A stretch of 64,000 nt of DNA, taken from contig CP021424.1 in NCBI GenBank assembly GCA_002162095.1, positions 558,001-622,000 of the forward strand, written 5' to 3'. Numbering within the stretch: the first letter of the stretch is position 1; each line of letters starts with the position of its first letter. The notes under the pieces are model-generated. The model was not told the origin of the DNA, searched no databases, and saw only the letters and a program-made list of their open reading frames with translations. Source of the stretch: Armatimonadetes bacterium Uphvl-Ar2. GTDB lineage: Bacteria > Armatimonadota > Fimbriimonadia > Fimbriimonadales > Fimbriimonadaceae. Position numbers and translations under genes: made by a program. Of the stretch, positions 6,789-14,024 are shown in pieces.

Positions 6789-7199
6789 CTACAGGTTTGT
6801 CCGGCCCTGCGTAAACGGGGCACGACTCTGAAATGCGTGCGGCATTAAATCCTTAAACGTGAACTTGGTGCGATTTCCATCTTCGGCCACCATCCACACC
6901 ACCGCCTCGGGATCGGACACAAACTCGGCCATCACCGCCAGGCATTCCCCGCAGGGCGTTCCGCCATCTTCGGTGGCCACCGCCATTTCGGTCCACCGCC
7001 CCCCTTGGGCGTGAATCAATGTCCACAGTGCCACTCGCTCTGCGCACACACTGGCCCCGAAACTGATGTTCTCTATGTTCGAACCCGTACCCACGCGCCC
7101 GTCGGCCATCCGCACCGCCGCCCCCACTTGGTACTGGCTATACGGAGCGTACGCCTGCCCTCGCGCCGCCAGGGCCTTGGCAATCAAATCTTCACTCAT
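6789..7199 (-). CDS. cdd: Cytidine deaminase
   Basis: At 136 residues it has the usual size of a homotetrameric CDA. The zinc site is complete: Cys52-Ala-Glu54 in SVCAERVAL (Glu is the proton shuttle) and Cys83/Cys86 in TPCGEC. The N-terminal YAPYSQYQVGAAV and NIENISFGASVCAER stretches are hallmark pyrimidine nucleoside-binding segments. It converts cytidine and deoxycytidine to uridine and deoxyuridine for salvage. The start ATG overlaps the mutS2 stop by four bases (ATGA), so the two are co-translated. Confidence 0.96.
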   Translation of the reverse strand: MSEDLIAKALAARGQAYAPYSQYQVGAAVRMADGRVGTGSNIENISFGASVCAERVALWTLIHAQGGRWTEMAVATEDGGTPCGECLAVMAEFVSDPEAVVWMVAEDGNRTKFTFKDLMPHAFQSRAPFTQGRTNL

Positions 7200-9544
7200 T
7201 CAAACACCACTTCAGTTACGCCATCCCCGCCGGCTTCGGCGGAGGCCAGCGCGAACGACTTCACGCCCCGATGATTCTTCAGCCGTTGCCGCACAATCTC
7301 TCTTAGCACACCTTCGCCTTTCCCGTGCACAATCCGCACCCGTTCCACGCCGGCCAGTAGGGCTTCATCAATGAACTTATCCAGCATATCCGCGGCTTCG
7401 TCAGCACGGTAACGCCGAAGGTTGAGTTCGCGTTGCGCCGTCTGGGCACGGTGACGCATCATGGCTGCCGCTCCGGAAGGTGCGCGCTTCGGCTCGGGCT
7501 TCGGCCCGCCAATCACTTCAATGTGGCCCACGTCCACCATGGTCCGCATCGCTCCCATCTGCACGGCCACCCGCTTTCCTTGGGGAGTTTCAAGAATCGT
7601 GCCGGTTTGGCCCAGGCCACGTACCCGCACCGTCATCCCCCGCTGCAATCCTTGCGGCGGCGGAGCGATGGGCTTCAGCTTTGGCGCCTTCGGCTTCATC
7701 TCCTGCACAAAGCTGGTGCCCACGTTTTGCAGGTCGCGCAGCTTGGCGCGGGCCTTGTCTCGCCCTTCTTGGGTCGGAGACTTCCGCAGGTCCTCAAAGA
7801 TCTCGGCCGCTTCCAAACGAATCTGGCGCAGCACCTCGTCCAGCTCCTTGGCCAGGCGCTGCCGCACATCCCGGCGGCTGGATTCCAGTTGCTCCTCTTG
7901 CTCGGCCAGCGAGGCTTCTAGCTTCTTCAGTTGGCTGGCCAGGCGGTCGGCCTCGCTCTGCGCAGCCCGGGCCTGCTTCTCGGCTTGCTCCAGCTTGGTG
8001 ATGGTTTCGGCAATGGCGCGCGACTCCGGTTGCACCCCCGCCTCCGCCACCTCGATGACATCATCCGCCACCCCGTACCGCTTGGCAATGTGGAAGGCGT
8101 AGCTGCTGCCCGGCACCCCCACCAGCAGCCGGTACGTCGGCCGCATCGTCTTGCGGTCGAACTCCATGCTGGCGTTCATGAACCCCGGCGCGTTCGTGGC
8201 AAACAGCTTCAATTCGCCGTAGTGCGTGCTGGATAGCACCCGCGCCCCGCCCCGCTGGAAGGCCAACAAAAGCGCCCGCGCCAGAGCCGCGCCCTCTGCC
8301 GGGTCGGTGCCCGCGCCCACTTCGTCCAGCAGCACTAAGGCCCCCGGTTTCAACCCATTCAACGCCTCGGCCACGGTACGAATGTGGGCGCTAAACGTAC
8401 TCAGCGATTGTTGAAGGCTCTGCTCATCGCCGATATCCGCCCACAGTTGTGAGAAGCACCCGAGGTGCATCTCGTCGGCGCACGGCATCAGGCCGGATTG
8501 CCCCATGGCCACCGCCAACCCCAGGGCCTTCATCGTCACCGTTTTCCCCCCGGTGTTTGGCCCGGTGATGAGCAGCACATCGGTGCCCTCACCCAAATCC
8601 AAAGAAAACGGCACCACCACCGCGCGATCAATCAGCGGATGACGACCCTGAACCACCTTCACGCGCGGCCCCTTGAGTGGTTTGGGCAAGCACCCGCCCT
8701 GCCGCGAGCCCAGCCGACCCTTCGCCAGGGTCAAATCCAGATCGGTCACGGCATCCAGCCCATCCAGCAGCGGCCCGGCCACTGCCCCAATCGCCCCGCT
8801 CACGTCCGCGCGGATTCGGCGCTCTTCTTCGCGCACCTGGCCCTCCACCGCCCGCAGTTCGTTGCCGATGTCCACCACGTCCTGGGGTTCTAGGTAAATC
8901 GTCTGCCCGCTGGCGCTGGAATCGTGGACGATCCCCTTGATTTTCCCCCGGTTTTCTGCCTTGAGCGGGAGCACGTACCGCCCTTCGCGCTGGGTGTAGA
9001 TCGGGTCACTTAGCAGCCCGCGATGCGGGCCGGAAACGTAGCTCTGAATTCGCTCTGTTGCCCGCACCTGCAAGACGGCGCGTCGGATCCGCAAGGTGCC
9101 CAGCTTCGCGCTGGCCTCGTCCTTCACTTGGCCTTCGGCGTCAATACAGCGGTCGATCTTGGTGCGCAGGGTCGGCACTTCGGGCATGCGCTGCGCCCGA
9201 ATCCGCAAGAGCGGCCGGTCGTTGCGCTTGGCCAGCTTCGCCCGCACCGCGTCCGCAATCTCCAGGTAGCGCCCCACCCGAGCCAGCACCTCCCCTTCCA
9301 GCACGGCTTCCTTGGAGGCCAGTTGGAGCGGCTCTTTGAGATCATGCACTCCCGCCAGGCTCGGCGGACCTTCATCGAGCGTAGCCAGGGCCTCGGCCGT
9401 CAGGGCCATCAAGTCGGCCACTTCAGCCGGATCGGTGGGTGGCCGCACGCGCAACGCGGCCTGACGACCGAGCGGAGTTTCGCACTCGGTCGCCAGCATC
9501 TGCAGGATGGCATCGAACTCGATGACCTTCAGCGCGTGCTCCAT
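7196..9544 (-). CDS. mutS2: Endonuclease MutS2 / ribosome-collision-associated ATPase
   Basis: A 782-residue protein from ATG 9544 (a GTG lies directly before it). It contains the MutS core and clamp helices, the ATPase with Walker A GPNTGGKTVTMK and the Walker B segment ALVLLDEVGAGTDPAEGAAL. A long charged coiled coil (around KLEQAEKQARAAQSEADRLA) follows, then a KOW-like segment and a C-terminal Smr domain with HGKGEGVLREIV. This order and length are those of MutS2, not of mismatch-repair MutS, because the mismatch-recognition domain is absent. Known roles are suppression of homologous recombination and, in Bacillus, splitting or rescue of collided ribosomes. It is first in a unit with cdd and the cyclase-domain protein. 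Confidence 0.96.
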   Translation of the reverse strand: MEHALKVIEFDAILQMLATECETPLGRQAALRVRPPTDPAEVADLMALTAEALATLDEGPPSLAGVHDLKEPLQLASKEAVLEGEVLARVGRYLEIADAVRAKLAKRNDRPLLRIRAQRMPEVPTLRTKIDRCIDAEGQVKDEASAKLGTLRIRRAVLQVRATERIQSYVSGPHRGLLSDPIYTQREGRYVLPLKAENRGKIKGIVHDSSASGQTIYLEPQDVVDIGNELRAVEGQVREEERRIRADVSGAIGAVAGPLLDGLDAVTDLDLTLAKGRLGSRQGGCLPKPLKGPRVKVVQGRHPLIDRAVVVPFSLDLGEGTDVLLITGPNTGGKTVTMKALGLAVAMGQSGLMPCADEMHLGCFSQLWADIGDEQSLQQSLSTFSAHIRTVAEALNGLKPGALVLLDEVGAGTDPAEGAALARALLLAFQRGGARVLSSTHYGELKLFATNAPGFMNASMEFDRKTMRPTYRLLVGVPGSSYAFHIAKRYGVADDVIEVAEAGVQPESRAIAETITKLEQAEKQARAAQSEADRLASQLKKLEASLAEQEEQLESSRRDVRQRLAKELDEVLRQIRLEAAEIFEDLRKSPTQEGRDKARAKLRDLQNVGTSFVQEMKPKAPKLKPIAPPPQGLQRGMTVRVRGLGQTGTILETPQGKRVAVQMGAMRTMVDVGHIEVIGGPKPEPKRAPSGAAAMMRHRAQTAQRELNLRRYRADEAADMLDKFIDEALLAGVERVRIVHGKGEGVLREIVRQRLKNHRGVKSFALASAEAGGDGVTEVVFE

Positions 9545-9589
9545 CACTTTGTATTGTGAAGCCTCGCGCTGATTTTCCGTGAGGTTAGG

Positions 9590-10363
9590 TTAGTCGCAGG
9601 CCCAGTACCAGGTGCCGTCGGTCGGGTGCGGGTCGCCCGACTTGTTGCCGTCCGGGTTCACCACGGTCTGGTCAAACTGCCCGGCGCCGGTCACAAACTT
9701 GGCGTGCCCGTCGGCAAAGATCACCGTTCCGCCGGTGGCGCTCCACTGCCGGTAGTAATCGCCATCCGGGAAAACCCCGTCGCAGTCATAGCCGTAGCGC
9801 GAGCAGTCCGGCTGTTCCATGCCGCTCTTGCGGGCAAAGAACGGGAACATCTCGCTGCGCATGATGCGGCTGGCGGCCGGATCTTCCATTTGGGTCTCCG
9901 TCACCGTCCACCCGGGTTGCCCAGTGGTGTCGTGGCCGTCGTAGCTCGCCGAATACCCCGGCACAAAGGTGTACATGCACTTGGTGTAGCGGTAGCTACT
10001 GCCATAGGCCTCGTAGTACGAAGACTTGCCCGTCGTGCGGTTGGCAAACGGGCCGCCTACGTCCAGAGGGCTCTTGAAGATGTCCTTGTTGCCCGTGTAG
10101 GGCTTCACTTGGGTCGCCACGCCCTTGTGCCCCGCCGTGAACGGGCTGGGCGTAGTCTGGTACGCCATGAAAATGGGCATAGTGTCGTCGTAGTCGCCGA
10201 TGTACAGCTTCACCGCCATCCCAATTTGCCGCCCATTGCTGAGGTCGGCGGTGTTCTTGGCCGCTTCCTTCGCCCGGGCAAACACCGGGAAGAGGATCGC
10301 CGCCAAGATAGCAATGATGGCGATGACTACAAGAAGTTCAATCAGTGTGAACGCGCGTCGCAT
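9590..10363 (-). CDS. DUF1559-type prepilin-like protein downstream of a TPP riboswitch
   Basis: ATG 10363 gives 257 residues starting [20 protein letters not shown], a type IV prepilin/pseudopilin leader. Processing would be expected before the FTLIE phenylalanine, with Glu at +5. The long mature domain ends with the DUF1559-like motif VIFADGHAKFVTG. Such proteins are greatly expanded in Planctomycetota and Armatimonadota, where they are thought to be exported by pseudopilus or type II-like machinery. No pilus assembly gene is near. A ribosome site (AGGA) lies eight bases from the ATG. The 5' leader contains a TPP riboswitch 73 bases upstream, an unexpected regulator for this family. Confidence 0.9.
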   Translation of the reverse strand: MRRAFTLIELLVVIAIIAILAAILFPVFARAKEAAKNTADLSNGRQIGMAVKLYIGDYDDTMPIFMAYQTTPSPFTAGHKGVATQVKPYTGNKDIFKSPLDVGGPFANRTTGKSSYYEAYGSSYRYTKCMYTFVPGYSASYDGHDTTGQPGWTVTETQMEDPAASRIMRSEMFPFFARKSGMEQPDCSRYGYDCDGVFPDGDYYRQWSATGGTVIFADGHAKFVTGAGQFDQTVVNPDGNKSGDPHPTDGTWYWACD

Positions 10364-10432
10364 CTGTTTTGTCCTGGCCGACTCCCCTCGCACTCTCGGG
10401 TGCGGTAGAGGAGCCCGTAGGTTCCGCGACGC

Positions 10433-10530
10433 GACCCGCAATCCCTCCGCCGGCATGACCCGGATCAGGTTCTAGGGGACAACCCGGCGTTTGCCGGTGA
10501 ATCTCAGCCTTGCGGCGCCCCCTGCGGTTG
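10433..10530 (-). ncRNA. TPP riboswitch (THI element)
   Basis: Read on the minus strand the segment has every conserved block of the thiamine pyrophosphate aptamer in order: GGGGCGCC (10521-10514), GCTGAGA (10508-10502), a variable P3a-like hairpin, GAACCTGATCCGGGTC, then ATGCCGGCGGAGGGA ending near 10442. The outer helix P1 is CCGCA (10527-10523) with TGCGG (10440-10436). The next element downstream is a hairpin at 10382-10413 (CTCCTC...GAGGGGAG on the minus strand) with no U-tract. The expression platform is therefore probably translational, or else degenerate. The only gene before mutS2 is the prepilin-like protein at 9590-10363. Confidence 0.93.
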
Positions 10531-10597
10531 GCTTGTCTGCCAACTCTATTCTAAGGCAAAACCCGCCCCCGAGTGCCCGGCATGCGAAAAGGGTCCC

Positions 10598-10637
10598 AAA
10601 AACAAACTGGCCCCGGACCGAATCGGTCCGAGGCCAG
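10598..10637 (-). terminator. Rho-independent terminator of the second prepilin-like gene
   Basis: On the minus strand CTGGCCTCGGACC pairs with GGTCCGGGGCCAG around a short loop and is followed by TTTGTTTTTGGG. It lies just after the stop at 10660 and isolates that gene from the riboswitch unit. Confidence 0.85.
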
Positions 10638-10659
10638 CGCTTCCCGAAGGAGGCGAGTC

Positions 10660-11481
10660 TTACGGGCAGGGGATCTGGTCTTCGCTGTCCGTGATGGTCG
10701 AACCCGGGACGCCGTGCAGGTCGTTGTACGGGTTGGTAGCCGTGCTGCTGACCGCTTGGAGCTCTTGGTTCGTAGCGCAGAGCTGGTCCGGCCCGCAGGT
10801 CGGCTCGGGGTTGCGCCAAGAGTAGTACGTCGCGGCTCGGCTACCCGGAGGAGTCGCGCCACCGTTCGGAACACCATTCCACTTGTGGAACTTGGCGTGC
10901 GAGTCAGCGTAGTTCACCACCAGGCCTTCGGCGTGGCGGGCTTGAGCCAAGAACGTGTAGTAGTCCAGCAGAGCGGCCGTCTTGATGTAGCCATCAAAGA
11001 ACATGATCGTGCCCGTGCCGTCTTCCAGACCGGAGTGGTTGGAGATCGGGGTATAGCCCGACTTGATCGGCAGACCGCAGAGGTTTTCGGCGAAAAGACC
11101 GAGGTTCGCCACATAAGAGGCGCGCTCTACCTTGCTGGACTGGAGGCCCAGACCGTTCAGACGGGCTCGCCATCTTTGCGGCGGATTGTCAGACGGGCTG
11201 GTGAGTATCTGCACATTCTTCATGTACGGGTCCAGAGCATCGTAGACGGAGAACACCGTCAACCCGGTTTGGCCCGGGCGGTAGGCACTCATGGGCATCT
11301 GGTCGTCGTAATCGCTGAGGTAGATCATGACCGAGGTCCCGATCTGCTTCATGTTATTGATCGACTGCGTCTTCTTGGCCGCGTCTTTCGCCTTTGCGAA
11401 GACCGGGAAGAGGATCGCGGCCAGGATCGCAATGATGGCGATGACAACGAGCAGTTCGATAAGGGTGAACGCTTTGCGCAT
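10660..11481 (-). CDS. DUF1559-type prepilin-like protein
   Basis: ATG 11481 gives 273 residues with the same leader type ([20 protein letters not shown]), followed by [20 protein letters not shown], the helical segment typical of these proteins. The near-C-terminal motif reads [14 protein letters not shown], with Ser where relatives have Gly. The mature domain is predicted to be extracytoplasmic and its function is unknown. It has its own terminator downstream and is divergent from the sigma factor gene at 11617. Its leader is near-identical to that of the protein at 9590-10363 but the body differs, so it is a paralogue and not a recent duplicate. Confidence 0.92.
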
Positions 11482-11518
11482 TGGAATCAGCACGTTTTCG
11501 CGGCCAGTTGCCCGAAAC

Positions 11519-11616: not shown

Positions 11617-12186
11617 ATGCGCTTCGGCCGGGCATCCTCACAACAGGACCGGTACGAACGCGAATTCCGCACCATCTACTCCGCCCTGTACGGCACCGCA
11701 CTCCGCATGACCCGCGACCCGGATCGGGCTGCCGATCTGGTCCAAGAAGCCTCAGTTCGAGGCTACGAAGCCTTCGACAAGTTCGACGGACGCAACTTTA
11801 AGGCCTGGATGTTGAGGATCATGACGAACCTCTATATCAATCAGTACCGAAAGCTGTATCGCACCGCCGGCCAGGTCTCTTTGGAGGACGAACACGTCGA
11901 AGAAGCGGTCGCTCCCCCCGAAGAAATACCAGATATACAAATTTTTTCGGACATGCTGGAAGAGGAGGTCGAACAGGCCCTGGGCGACGTGCCCGATACC
12001 TTCCGGCAAGCCGTGATTCTCGCTGATATTGAAGGTCTTTCGTACGACGAAATCGCCGTGATCGTGGATGTTCCCGTCGGTACGGTGCGGTCAAGAATTG
12101 CGCGAGGGCGGGCCCATTTGCGACAATCGCTGGAACGCTACGCCATCGAGCGTGGTTACATCAAGAAGAGTTCGATCGATGAGTGA
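11617..12186 (+). CDS. ECF-type RNA polymerase sigma factor
   Basis: 189 residues, close to the usual ECF size. Region 2 is recognisable as ALRMTRDPDRAADLVQEASV and FKAWMLRIMTNLYINQYRK. Region 4 contains LSYDEIAVIVDVPVGTVRSR, the helix-turn-helix that reads the -35 element. It recruits RNA polymerase to a regulon that cannot be predicted here. ATG 11617 lacks a good ribosome site, and a -10-like TAAATT ends seven bases before it, so the message may be leaderless. The stop overlaps the start of the next gene, a membrane anti-sigma factor candidate, by eight bases. Confidence 0.93.
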   Translation: MRFGRASSQQDRYEREFRTIYSALYGTALRMTRDPDRAADLVQEASVRGYEAFDKFDGRNFKAWMLRIMTNLYINQYRKLYRTAGQVSLEDEHVEEAVAPPEEIPDIQIFSDMLEEEVEQALGDVPDTFRQAVILADIEGLSYDEIAVIVDVPVGTVRSRIARGRAHLRQSLERYAIERGYIKKSSIDE

Positions 12187-12937
12187 CATCCGAGACCTGA
12201 TAAGTGCCTACGCCGACGGCACGGCGACGCCCGAAGAGCGTGCCCACGTCGAGCGGCTGGCGGCCGAGCAACCGGAAGTGGCCCGCGAAATCCTGTGGAT
12301 GCAGGTGGCACGCCAGATGCTGGCCGAGAAGTGCCGCACCGAAGCTCCGGAAGAACTTTTCTCCACATGCATGTCCCGGGTCCGCGAGATGGACCGCCGG
12401 CAGCGCACCGAGCGCACCGTCACCCGCCTGGCCCCCGCCCTTTGCGGCGCGTTGTGCGTCGCCATCATTGGCGCCGGGGTATTCAATCGGAGCCAAAACG
12501 GCAACACCCTGGGGGCCAACCAAGTCGCGAGCCTAATGACCGGGGGCGCCGCCGTCCGCGAACGCCAATCGGTGGATGCCGACCGTGCCGCCGACGCCTT
12601 CCGCGCCCTCAACGAGAACATGGGCGGGGCCGTCCGCCTTGGGGCCGTGCCGCAACTCCAACCGTGGAGCATCGAGCGGGGCTACCTCGATCGCCATCCG
12701 TTTACGCGGGTGCTCTTCCGCGATTCGCAAGGCGCGACCGTGCAACTGGTCGCCGTAGCCTCTAGTGGAGTTGCGATGGAAAACTGCGAAACCGTCGATT
12801 GCTACCGAATTAGCCAGATGAACGGGCTCACATGTGTGGCCTGGACCGAAGGCGAAACGACCATGCTCCTCACGGGTCCCTACGATCAGTCCACGCTGAT
12901 GGCGCTGGGCAACGAGCTTCGCCAAGTTAAGAACTGA
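12179..12937 (+). CDS. Putative membrane anti-sigma factor
   Basis: ATG 12179 lies inside the end of the sigma factor gene (ATGAGTGA overlap) and gives 252 residues. The N-terminal 80 residues are helical and charged (MSDIRDLISAYADGTATPEE), as in anti-sigma domains that bind ECF factors. One membrane segment follows (LAPALCGALCVAIIGAGVF), then an extracytoplasmic domain of about 150 residues. No zinc HxxxCxxC motif is present. Order, overlap and topology make it the regulator of the adjacent sigma factor, holding it at the membrane until a signal arrives. The family assignment rests on architecture more than on motifs. Confidence 0.82.
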   Translation: MSDIRDLISAYADGTATPEERAHVERLAAEQPEVAREILWMQVARQMLAEKCRTEAPEELFSTCMSRVREMDRRQRTERTVTRLAPALCGALCVAIIGAGVFNRSQNGNTLGANQVASLMTGGAAVRERQSVDADRAADAFRALNENMGGAVRLGAVPQLQPWSIERGYLDRHPFTRVLFRDSQGATVQLVAVASSGVAMENCETVDCYRISQMNGLTCVAWTEGETTMLLTGPYDQSTLMALGNELRQVKN

Positions 12938-12988: not shown

Positions 12989-13064
<76 letters not shown>

Positions 13065-13154
13065 GCGCGAACCTCTATGTTACCTCGGCACATGGAACCG
13101 ATTCCTGGACCCACATCCCCGAAAGGGTCCTCCGCACCAAGTAAACTGCCCGCC

Positions 13155-14024
13155 GTGCTTACGCGGCTCACGTCCTGGCTTCTGCTATGCCTCCTGGCCT
13201 TGATTCTGGTCGGATGCAATTCCAACGAGGTTGTCATTGGCGGGAAGGAACGCACCAAGCAATACAGCACGGTGGTCTCGCTGGCCCCCAGCGCCACTGA
13301 CTTCCTGTTGGTTCGCTTCCAGGCCGCGAACGTCCTCAAGGGCGTCACCGATGTGGACGACAGCCCGCTGGTGAAGGACAAGATTCGGGTGGTCAAGAAC
13401 ACCAAGCTCGACGCCGAGGCCCTCACCGCCCTGAAGCCGGACCTCATCGTCTACGACAGCCAACTGTGGACCGAGCAAGCCTTGGCCCCCGCCAAGGCGA
13501 CCGGCGCGGAGATGGTGGACATCAATGTTCAGAGCCTCGACGCTTATATCGAAAAGTCTTACGAATTGGCCAAGAAGTTTGGCAACGAACTGAGCGCCAG
13601 CGAGTACCTCGACGTGATTGATAGTGCCCGCTCTTCGGTGCGGGGCAACTTGGGCACGCTGGCCAAGCCCAAGGTCACGCTGCTTCTGGTTTCCAATGGC
13701 TACATGGTGGCCGGCTCCAAGAGCATGGCCGCCGACCTGATCCGCAACGCCCAGGGCGAATTCATTGGCCCGGATTCGGTCCGCTACGAAACCGTGAACG
13801 TCGAGTGGCTGCTACAAAATCAGCCCGACATCATCTTTGTGCTGGGCGAAGGTGCCGATAAGGTCCTCGCTGACCCCCGCCTCGCTCCGGTTTCGGCGGT
13901 CAAGACCCAAAACGTCTTCAACATCAACGAAACCCAAATGAGCCGCTACACCGCCATTGACCGTCTTATTACCTCGATAGGCTCGCGCGTGGTGGAGTGG
14001 GCCAAAAAGAACCAAGGCAACTAA
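13155..14024 (+). CDS. Periplasmic-binding lipoprotein of the helical-backbone (BtuF/TroA-like) type
   Basis: From GTG 13155 the protein opens with a compact lipoprotein signal, LTRLTSWLLLCLLALILVGC, and is about 289 residues. ATG 13077 or 13092 would add an unneeded tail before the signal. The motif STVVSLAPSATDFLLVRF near the start, and WLLQNQPDIIFVLGEGADKV later, match cobalamin or iron-siderophore binding proteins of the BtuF/FhuD class. These capture ligand and deliver it to a BtuCD-type importer. No permease or ATPase is adjacent, so the transporter partner is elsewhere and the ligand is unknown. It begins right after the divergent tRNA-Trp. Confidence 0.85.
   Translation: MLTRLTSWLLLCLLALILVGCNSNEVVIGGKERTKQYSTVVSLAPSATDFLLVRFQAANVLKGVTDVDDSPLVKDKIRVVKNTKLDAEALTALKPDLIVYDSQLWTEQALAPAKATGAEMVDINVQSLDAYIEKSYELAKKFGNELSASEYLDVIDSARSSVRGNLGTLAKPKVTLLLVSNGYMVAGSKSMAADLIRNAQGEFIGPDSVRYETVNVEWLLQNQPDIIFVLGEGADKVLADPRLAPVSAVKTQNVFNINETQMSRYTAIDRLITSIGSRVVEWAKKNQGN

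Follow-up and report, generated by a model that had tools for sequence, protein, structure and literature searches.

The analyzed stretch of DNA, hereafter the window, comprises 64 kb, and an Rfam scan over its whole length identified a TPP riboswitch aptamer (RF00059, the THI element) on the minus strand at positions 10424-10532. The match, read from 10532 to 10424, reaches 61.7 bits at a gathering threshold of 54.3 (E 1.1e-9, model positions 1-105), i.e. sequence and structure of the element together pass the curated cut-off. The helices and conserved blocks are present in the printed alignment, in which about 10 pairs are marked as non-standard, and the motifs CUGAGA and ACCUGAU, which we take to be conserved RF00059 blocks, were both located by pattern search as well. 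This covariance score above the gathering threshold bears out the preliminary description, which had proposed a minus-strand TPP riboswitch with THI-box blocks at 10433-10530. No other RF00059 match is found in the window's own genome of 2.63 Mb. The riboswitch is followed on the same strand by a gene for a prepilin of 257 amino acids (9590-10363, minus strand). Its likely start codon (ATG at 10363) lies 60 nt past the Rfam match and its stop codon at 9592-9590; the longest possible ORF would begin at 10456, within the aptamer. The next gene downstream is mutS2 (7196-9547, minus strand; TIGR01069, 774 bits versus 400), which starts 42 nt past the prepilin stop codon and is not counted in the unit. 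The idea that this arrangement serves to control mutS2 by read-through was rejected, since mutS2 was not recognized among the listed neighbor clusters of at least four genomes at riboswitch-prepilin loci. The ORFs and the TIGR01069 match agree with the earlier claim that only the prepilin gene lies between riboswitch and mutS2, and the observation of a riboswitch in front of a prepilin gene is confirmed.

On the other side of the riboswitch, a second prepilin gene, which lacks its own riboswitch, is located at 10660-11493 (minus strand); its product exceeds the PF07963 cut-off and scores just under that of DUF1559. The transcript of this gene is predicted to end at an intrinsic terminator at 10606-10638 (minus strand, read from 10638 to 10606), which consists of a 15-pair stem and a T-rich tail (-31 kcal/mol, z -4.4) and parts the riboswitch from the neighboring prepilin gene, as had been proposed before. 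Riboswitch control of the upstream prepilin was rejected because this terminator lies in between. Homologues of the upstream gene with 50-95% identity are the immediate upstream neighbors of the riboswitch gene in four relatives (G001, G002, G032 and G034), and in G026 such a homologue lies upstream at a distance of about 4.6 kb. In the latter genome two riboswitch matches are separated by 3.6 kb, and the second of them stays just under the gathering threshold with 53.6 bits; the one that comes first in the order of transcription is followed by a shortened copy of a prepilin gene related to 10660-11493, and the whole arrangement looks like a recent duplication.

The protein behind the riboswitch is recognized as a prepilin by PF07963 (30.6 bits, cut-off 21.2) and also matches TIGR02532 with 31.6 bits, and models of type II secretion pseudopilins match its prepilin motif below their cut-offs. 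The preliminary description had called it a DUF1559 prepilin-like protein. The prepilin part of this naming stands, whereas DUF1559 (PF07596, gathering threshold 23.3) gave no match at E<=0.1 in the window protein, though all four tested orthologues from other families pass the PF07596 cut-off over short stretches, as does a more distant prepilin from family f42. With DUF1559 prepilins (PF07596, Pfam short name SBP_bac_10) the group shares the N-terminal prepilin motif and orthologues above the cut-off; DUF1559 proteins form large paralogous sets of unknown function. The structure predicted from 45 sequences (mean pLDDT 71.9, pTM 0.72) consists of a 51-residue N-terminal helix (residues 7-57) and a globular domain of mixed confidence. 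Its best structural match is PilA4 (6xxd) with modest scores (VIA Z 5.2, rmsd 4.0, 120 aligned residues). A Foldseek search with the model gave no match at 0.001, and the fold search revealed no relative besides ordinary type IV pilins. The genome of the window contains 23 prepilin matches at E<=1e-20, among which only the window prepilin carries the switch, because the genome has a single riboswitch.

The same arrangement was sought in a set of 61 genomes, i.e. the window's own genome and 60 relatives. RF00059 is present in 52 of them, and the genes that follow the 55 riboswitches encode a prepilin in 42 cases, thiC in nine (all in family f2) and something else in four, namely at second copies in G007, G017 and G026 and in G039. 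The 40 longer of the 42 linked prepilins align from end to end with a mean column identity of 55% and 46 invariant columns. Their conservation reaches well past the usual N-terminus and includes a conserved C-terminal part of their own. With a profile of the linked prepilins, all 42 genomes reached at least 312 bits, whereas no prepilin outside the group scored above 139.6 bits. The f2 genomes with thiC contain many other prepilins and lack the riboswitch-linked group. The TPP riboswitch controls thiC in f2 and, in other families, genes that read like thi4, thiC, thiE or thiG by eye; in contrast, the only copy in the window and in most of its family controls a prepilin gene. As to the remaining targets, the second riboswitches of G007 (L036) and G017 (L042) are followed by unnamed genes, the products of which have 231 and 580 residues, respectively, and a Pfam search with the 231-residue protein gave no match. 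The sole TPP riboswitch match of G039 (L018 / L215, family f4) precedes a membrane-like protein of 227 residues, for which Pfam gave no match either; neither a thiC match nor a prepilin of the group was found in this genome.

Across the phylum, RF00059 was found at E<=0.001 in 224 of 291 Armatimonadota genomes, and the riboswitch-linked prepilin group comprises 142 genes in 136 of them, as judged from the best candidates scored per genome (up to 12 for RF00059 and up to nine for the prepilin). The group is set off by a clear gap in the profile scores, its lowest member reaching 187.6 bits and the next prepilins at most 146; the window prepilin itself scores 410.5 bits against at most 146 outside the group among the best candidates (up to nine per genome). 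A riboswitch lies directly upstream of 138 of the 142 group prepilins. A first pass, which considered up to 400 nt upstream on the same strand, recovered it for at least 103, and single inspection of the remaining 39 added RF00059 directly upstream of 35, including G115, whose element scores 52.6 bits, just under the gathering threshold, and is counted among the 138. Of the other four, three (G038, G068 and G079) take the second place in a tandem pair of prepilin genes that follows a single riboswitch, and one lies at a contig end (G218, contig 122), hence the pairing has no clear exception. More distant prepilins, with 116 to 135 bits on the group profile, are also linked to riboswitches in families f30, f39 and f42. 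Among 288 genomes of Verrucomicrobiota none of the best candidates (up to nine per genome) fell into the range of the group, the highest score being 130.9 bits. Four of 20 named genomes, Planctomycetota included, carry the group; these four seem to be identical with G082, G046, G129 and G035, given the same contigs and nearly the same coordinates, and were not counted again. Among the matches listed from a profile search of the genome contigs, only the common pilin N-terminus was matched, and the exact riboswitch pattern was found at none of the 80 loci listed. One member of the set, G127, is very probably Fimbriimonas ginsengisoli, and its kinase is located at the contig end, where the last-numbered ORF of the published genome would be expected; it carries a riboswitch (L232, 58.3 bits) and a prepilin that is 51% identical to that of the window.

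The distribution of the prepilin group was compared with that of the thiamine synthesis genes. Matches to thiC, some of them partial, occur in 118 of the 291 genomes, a count that leaves out three more genomes with fragments or weak matches. Prepilin and thiC are found together in only six genomes, prepilin alone in 130, thiC alone in 112 and neither in 43 (Fisher p 3e-36, a value that ignores kinship and is descriptive only). The six genomes with both (G061, G081, G082, G092, G093 and G105) have two riboswitches each. The window's own genome has no thiC and no thiE match. Of the 42 genomes in the 61-genome set that bear the prepilin, 41 gave no thiE above the cut-off, four of these having matches below it, and in G046 the cut-off was reached only as the sum of weak pieces in one frame. 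Strong thiE matches are present in 13 of the 14 f2 genomes and in G014. The latter belongs to the family of the window (89% complete) and contains thiC, thiE and the thiamine pyrophosphokinase, with the thiamine genes on separate contigs, and lacks riboswitch and prepilin, which fits the contrast between prepilin and thiC. Matches to thiC, riboswitch and prepilin are all absent from G143 (98% complete), which has the kinase; the prepilin is thus not indispensable, because such genomes without thiC keep the kinase without riboswitch and prepilin. For Fimbriimonas ginsengisoli, excerpts of PMC4072686 state that the enzymes of thiamine synthesis are absent except thiamin pyrophosphokinase.

In other families the riboswitch-prepilin unit can run on into this kinase. 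When prepilins and shadow frames are set aside, thiamine pyrophosphokinase forms the one cluster of constant place and strand among the neighbors of 80 riboswitch-prepilin loci (8 genomes). For at least 29 of the 56 prepilin genes outside the order to which the window belongs, the kinase gene is found on the same strand no more than 300 nt downstream, and G257 and G258, also outside this order, show the same gene order with the distant kind of prepilin. The two unit kinases tested, from G116 and G258, reach 149 and 124.7 bits with TIGR01378 (cut-off 76.4). Past the kinase, overlapping it or close to it, a sodium:solute symporter of the SSS family follows at 12 of the 16 loci at which at least 250 nt are visible; it was not seen at the other four (L181, L191, L246 and L250), and at L252 a symporter comes after two prepilins with no kinase in between. 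The symporters tested gave 79.7 (G116) and 88.5 bits (G111) with PF00474 (cut-off 22.8), and the NCBIfam SSS, PanF and PutP models all stayed under their cut-offs.

Within the order of the window the genes are arranged differently. The kinase adjoins the prepilin in none of the 82 genomes with a known place of the kinase, out of 85 prepilin genomes; it is on the contig of the prepilin in 17 genomes and there at least 66 kb away. In the window's own genome a kinase homologue overlapped by a symporter gene lies at about 1.013 Mb without a riboswitch; this pair (L259:1495-3529), which is outside the window, is a candidate thiamine importer. The kinase (L259:1495-2133) scores 61.7 bits with TIGR01378 and thus under the cut-off of 76.4, passes PF04265 (37.9 versus 22) and stays under PF04263 (26.2 versus 30.7), and on these scores we treat it as a divergent homologue of thiamine pyrophosphokinase. 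The symporter reaches 36 bits with PF00474 (cut-off 22.8). Kinase-symporter pairs are present in G001, G002 and G004 too, and were not present in G031 and G155. In the simplest history, riboswitch, prepilin, kinase and symporter would have formed a single ancestral unit, which was later split in the order of the window; the reverse course, in which separate parts came first and were then joined, is a possible alternative.

As to how the riboswitch could act on the prepilin gene, folding of the gap between aptamer and start codon predicts a platform hairpin at 10380-10415 (minus strand). The window platform is more stable than dinucleotide shuffles (z -2.8); this hairpin is less certain, because a slightly longer stretch gave z -0.23, i.e. 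no excess of stability. Over the 80 riboswitch-prepilin loci the platforms have a mean z of -3.4 against dinucleotide shuffles, with z < -2 in 64, compared with a mean z of -0.1 and z < -2 in only 2 of 79 control stretches taken from inside the prepilin genes. Some relatives, for example G022 and G208, have a terminator-like U run 3' of the hairpin, and six or more U in some 8-nt stretch were found in 16 of the 80 platforms; no T run is located 3' of the window hairpin. The openness of the start region, calculated by folding for 79 of the 80 loci (one with a long platform was left out), was 0.44 with the aptamer set apart and 0.41 otherwise, the values for the window being 0.68 and 0.56, and with the aptamer set apart the platform formed 18.4 rather than 17.3 pairs with itself. 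Since the start region is slightly more open with the aptamer apart, a simple translational off switch is not favored. Exact pairing between the 3' strand of the aptamer and the platform is weak, with p<0.05 at just 12 of the 80 loci, and the corresponding duplex energies have a mean z of -0.74, with z < -2 at 13 of 80. By analogy with the known behavior of bacterial TPP riboswitches, TPP would turn the prepilin gene off. With plentiful TPP the aptamer would fold and the hairpin before the start codon would hold the prepilin off, through a terminator in some relatives and, in the window, through control of translation or another attenuation step; at low TPP the prepilin would be made.

Membership of the prepilin gene in the TPP regulon is well supported. 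Judged from gene context, the prepilin very likely belongs to thiamine salvage, and we consider it probable that the TPP riboswitch governs the first gene of a system for thiamine salvage, in which the prepilin aids thiamine capture. The preliminary description had suggested that TPP control of a surface protein might indicate such a role in capture. The suggestion gains support from the recurrence of the pairing in the phylum, where 130 of the 136 prepilin-bearing genomes are without thiC, and from the unit of other families, which runs on into thiamine pyrophosphokinase and symporter. Because many of the relatives seem to lack the synthesis and in some of them the unit also includes kinase and transporter, the prepilin is probably part of vitamin B1 scavenging. 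Kinase and symporter represent a known kind of regulon, as TPP riboswitches before uptake genes are known, and since the unit holds both, an uptake step at the outer envelope appears to be the most economical role for the prepilin.

We infer the direction of the switch, the assembly into a pilus, the substrate of the symporter and the action of the prepilin on thiamine. Processing and assembly of the prepilin would fall to the type IV pilus or type II secretion machinery, and the prepilin would form, at the cell surface, the outer-envelope part of thiamine capture; thiamine would then enter through the SSS-family sodium symporter and be converted into TPP by thiamine pyrophosphokinase. In several families these three genes sit in a single riboswitch-led unit, and in the lineage of the window riboswitch and prepilin are located apart from the kinase-symporter pair. 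For a direct binding of thiamine by the prepilin we see about even chances. More speculative is the combined idea of a type IV pilin as dedicated vitamin B1 receptor, according to which a thiamine-binding pilus or pseudopilus would be made only when TPP is short, would catch thiamine outside the cell and by its extension and retraction would carry it over the outer membrane, replacing a TonB-dependent receptor in this diderm phylum; taken together we regard this as possible but somewhat doubtful.

Several other roles were weighed against a part in thiamine capture. The prepilin might build a general attachment or contact pilus for times of TPP shortage, by which the cells would grip surfaces, algae or other cells from which thiamine leaks, the pilus itself having no contact with the vitamin. 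Type IV pilins commonly serve attachment, as is textbook knowledge, and the structural model of the prepilin shows a modest likeness to ordinary type IV pilins. The same role is suggested for the pili of Fimbriimonas ginsengisoli in excerpts of PMC4072686. However, of the 23 prepilin matches in the window's genome just a single group, with a conserved C-terminal part of its own, carries the switch, in other families the prepilin forms a unit together with kinase and symporter, and a general adhesin is not expected to avoid genomes that bear thiC, which makes this role unlikely. A role as pseudopilin is clearly less probable still; in this case a secretion system would release or present an enzyme that liberates thiamine, outside the cell, from TPP or bound forms, which would be an indirect route to the vitamin. 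This role would agree with the prepilin motif common to type II secretion pseudopilins, under the cut-offs of their models, with the type II secretion parts of Fimbriimonas ginsengisoli (excerpts of PMC4072686) and with the unnamed genes behind the second-copy riboswitches L036 and L042, but no conserved secreted enzyme was seen beside the prepilin, and the constant neighbor cluster in 8 genomes, prepilins and shadow frames aside, is the kinase. The weakest candidate, a riboswitch left before the prepilin gene by chance after the loss of a thiamine gene and without any regulatory meaning, was rejected as highly improbable, being largely refuted by the phylum-wide conservation, with the riboswitch directly upstream of 138 of the 142 group members, none without it where this could be checked, and a stable hairpin before the start codon at 64 of 80 loci. 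The loss of the original gene, which had been raised in the preliminary description, thus disagrees with the conserved pairing and retains one point in its favor, in that the prepilin of other families is followed by kinase and transporter, which in the order of the window are located elsewhere; the prepilin is the first gene in the relatives too, not a thiamine gene that was lost only here.

The proposed role of the prepilin in thiamine capture can be compared with known systems. TPP riboswitches precede thiB, thiXYZ, thiV and the gene of the outer membrane receptor omr (excerpts of PMC2211319), and ThiV of SAR11 is also encoded behind a TPP riboswitch (excerpts of PMC11452348). Uptake by ThiV, ThiBPQ and omr follows the same logic, with TPP as the sufficiency signal that controls uptake, and ThiV-type symporters belong to the SSS family like the symporter of the prepilin unit, for which transport of thiamine or HMP is predicted from the gene neighborhood. 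In contrast to these systems, the lead gene here encodes a prepilin and not an outer membrane receptor or binding protein, and it is this lead gene, kept across much of the phylum, that represents the new element. No mention of a prepilin led by a TPP riboswitch was found in print, subscription papers and preprints being outside the search. DUF1559 has been called a family of solute-binding proteins in a Rhodopirellula paper (excerpts of PMC2754498), and the excerpts of this paper and of PMC10632474 contain no link of DUF1559 proteins to a vitamin. For Fimbriimonas ginsengisoli, PilB, C, D, Q, M and T are reported (excerpts of PMC4072686). As a cultured species it offers a direct test case for the riboswitch-linked prepilin.

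ComP and other competence pilins bind a substrate for its uptake, and such a substrate-binding minor pilin would be the nearest working analogue of the proposed prepilin function; the ligand differs, and the comparison is one of function. The usual account of how diderm bacteria acquire vitamins involves TonB receptors, porins and binding proteins. With a pilin that is controlled by TPP and, in several families, encoded together with kinase and symporter, surface filaments would join the routes by which a small vitamin is taken up. Moreover, one prepilin group now has a predicted substrate, which offers a starting point for the large prepilin sets without assigned function that occur in Armatimonadota, Planctomycetota and Verrucomicrobiota.

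Two further features of the window are located on the plus strand beyond the prepilin genes. Two ORFs at 11617-12937, divergent from the prepilin genes, follow each other; the first presumably encodes an ECF-type sigma factor and the second has weak anti-sigma matches. Finally, a gene at 13077-14024, which adjoins a tRNA gene at 12992-13064, encodes a substrate-binding protein of the helical-backbone metal-receptor type with a score over the NF038402 cut-off.
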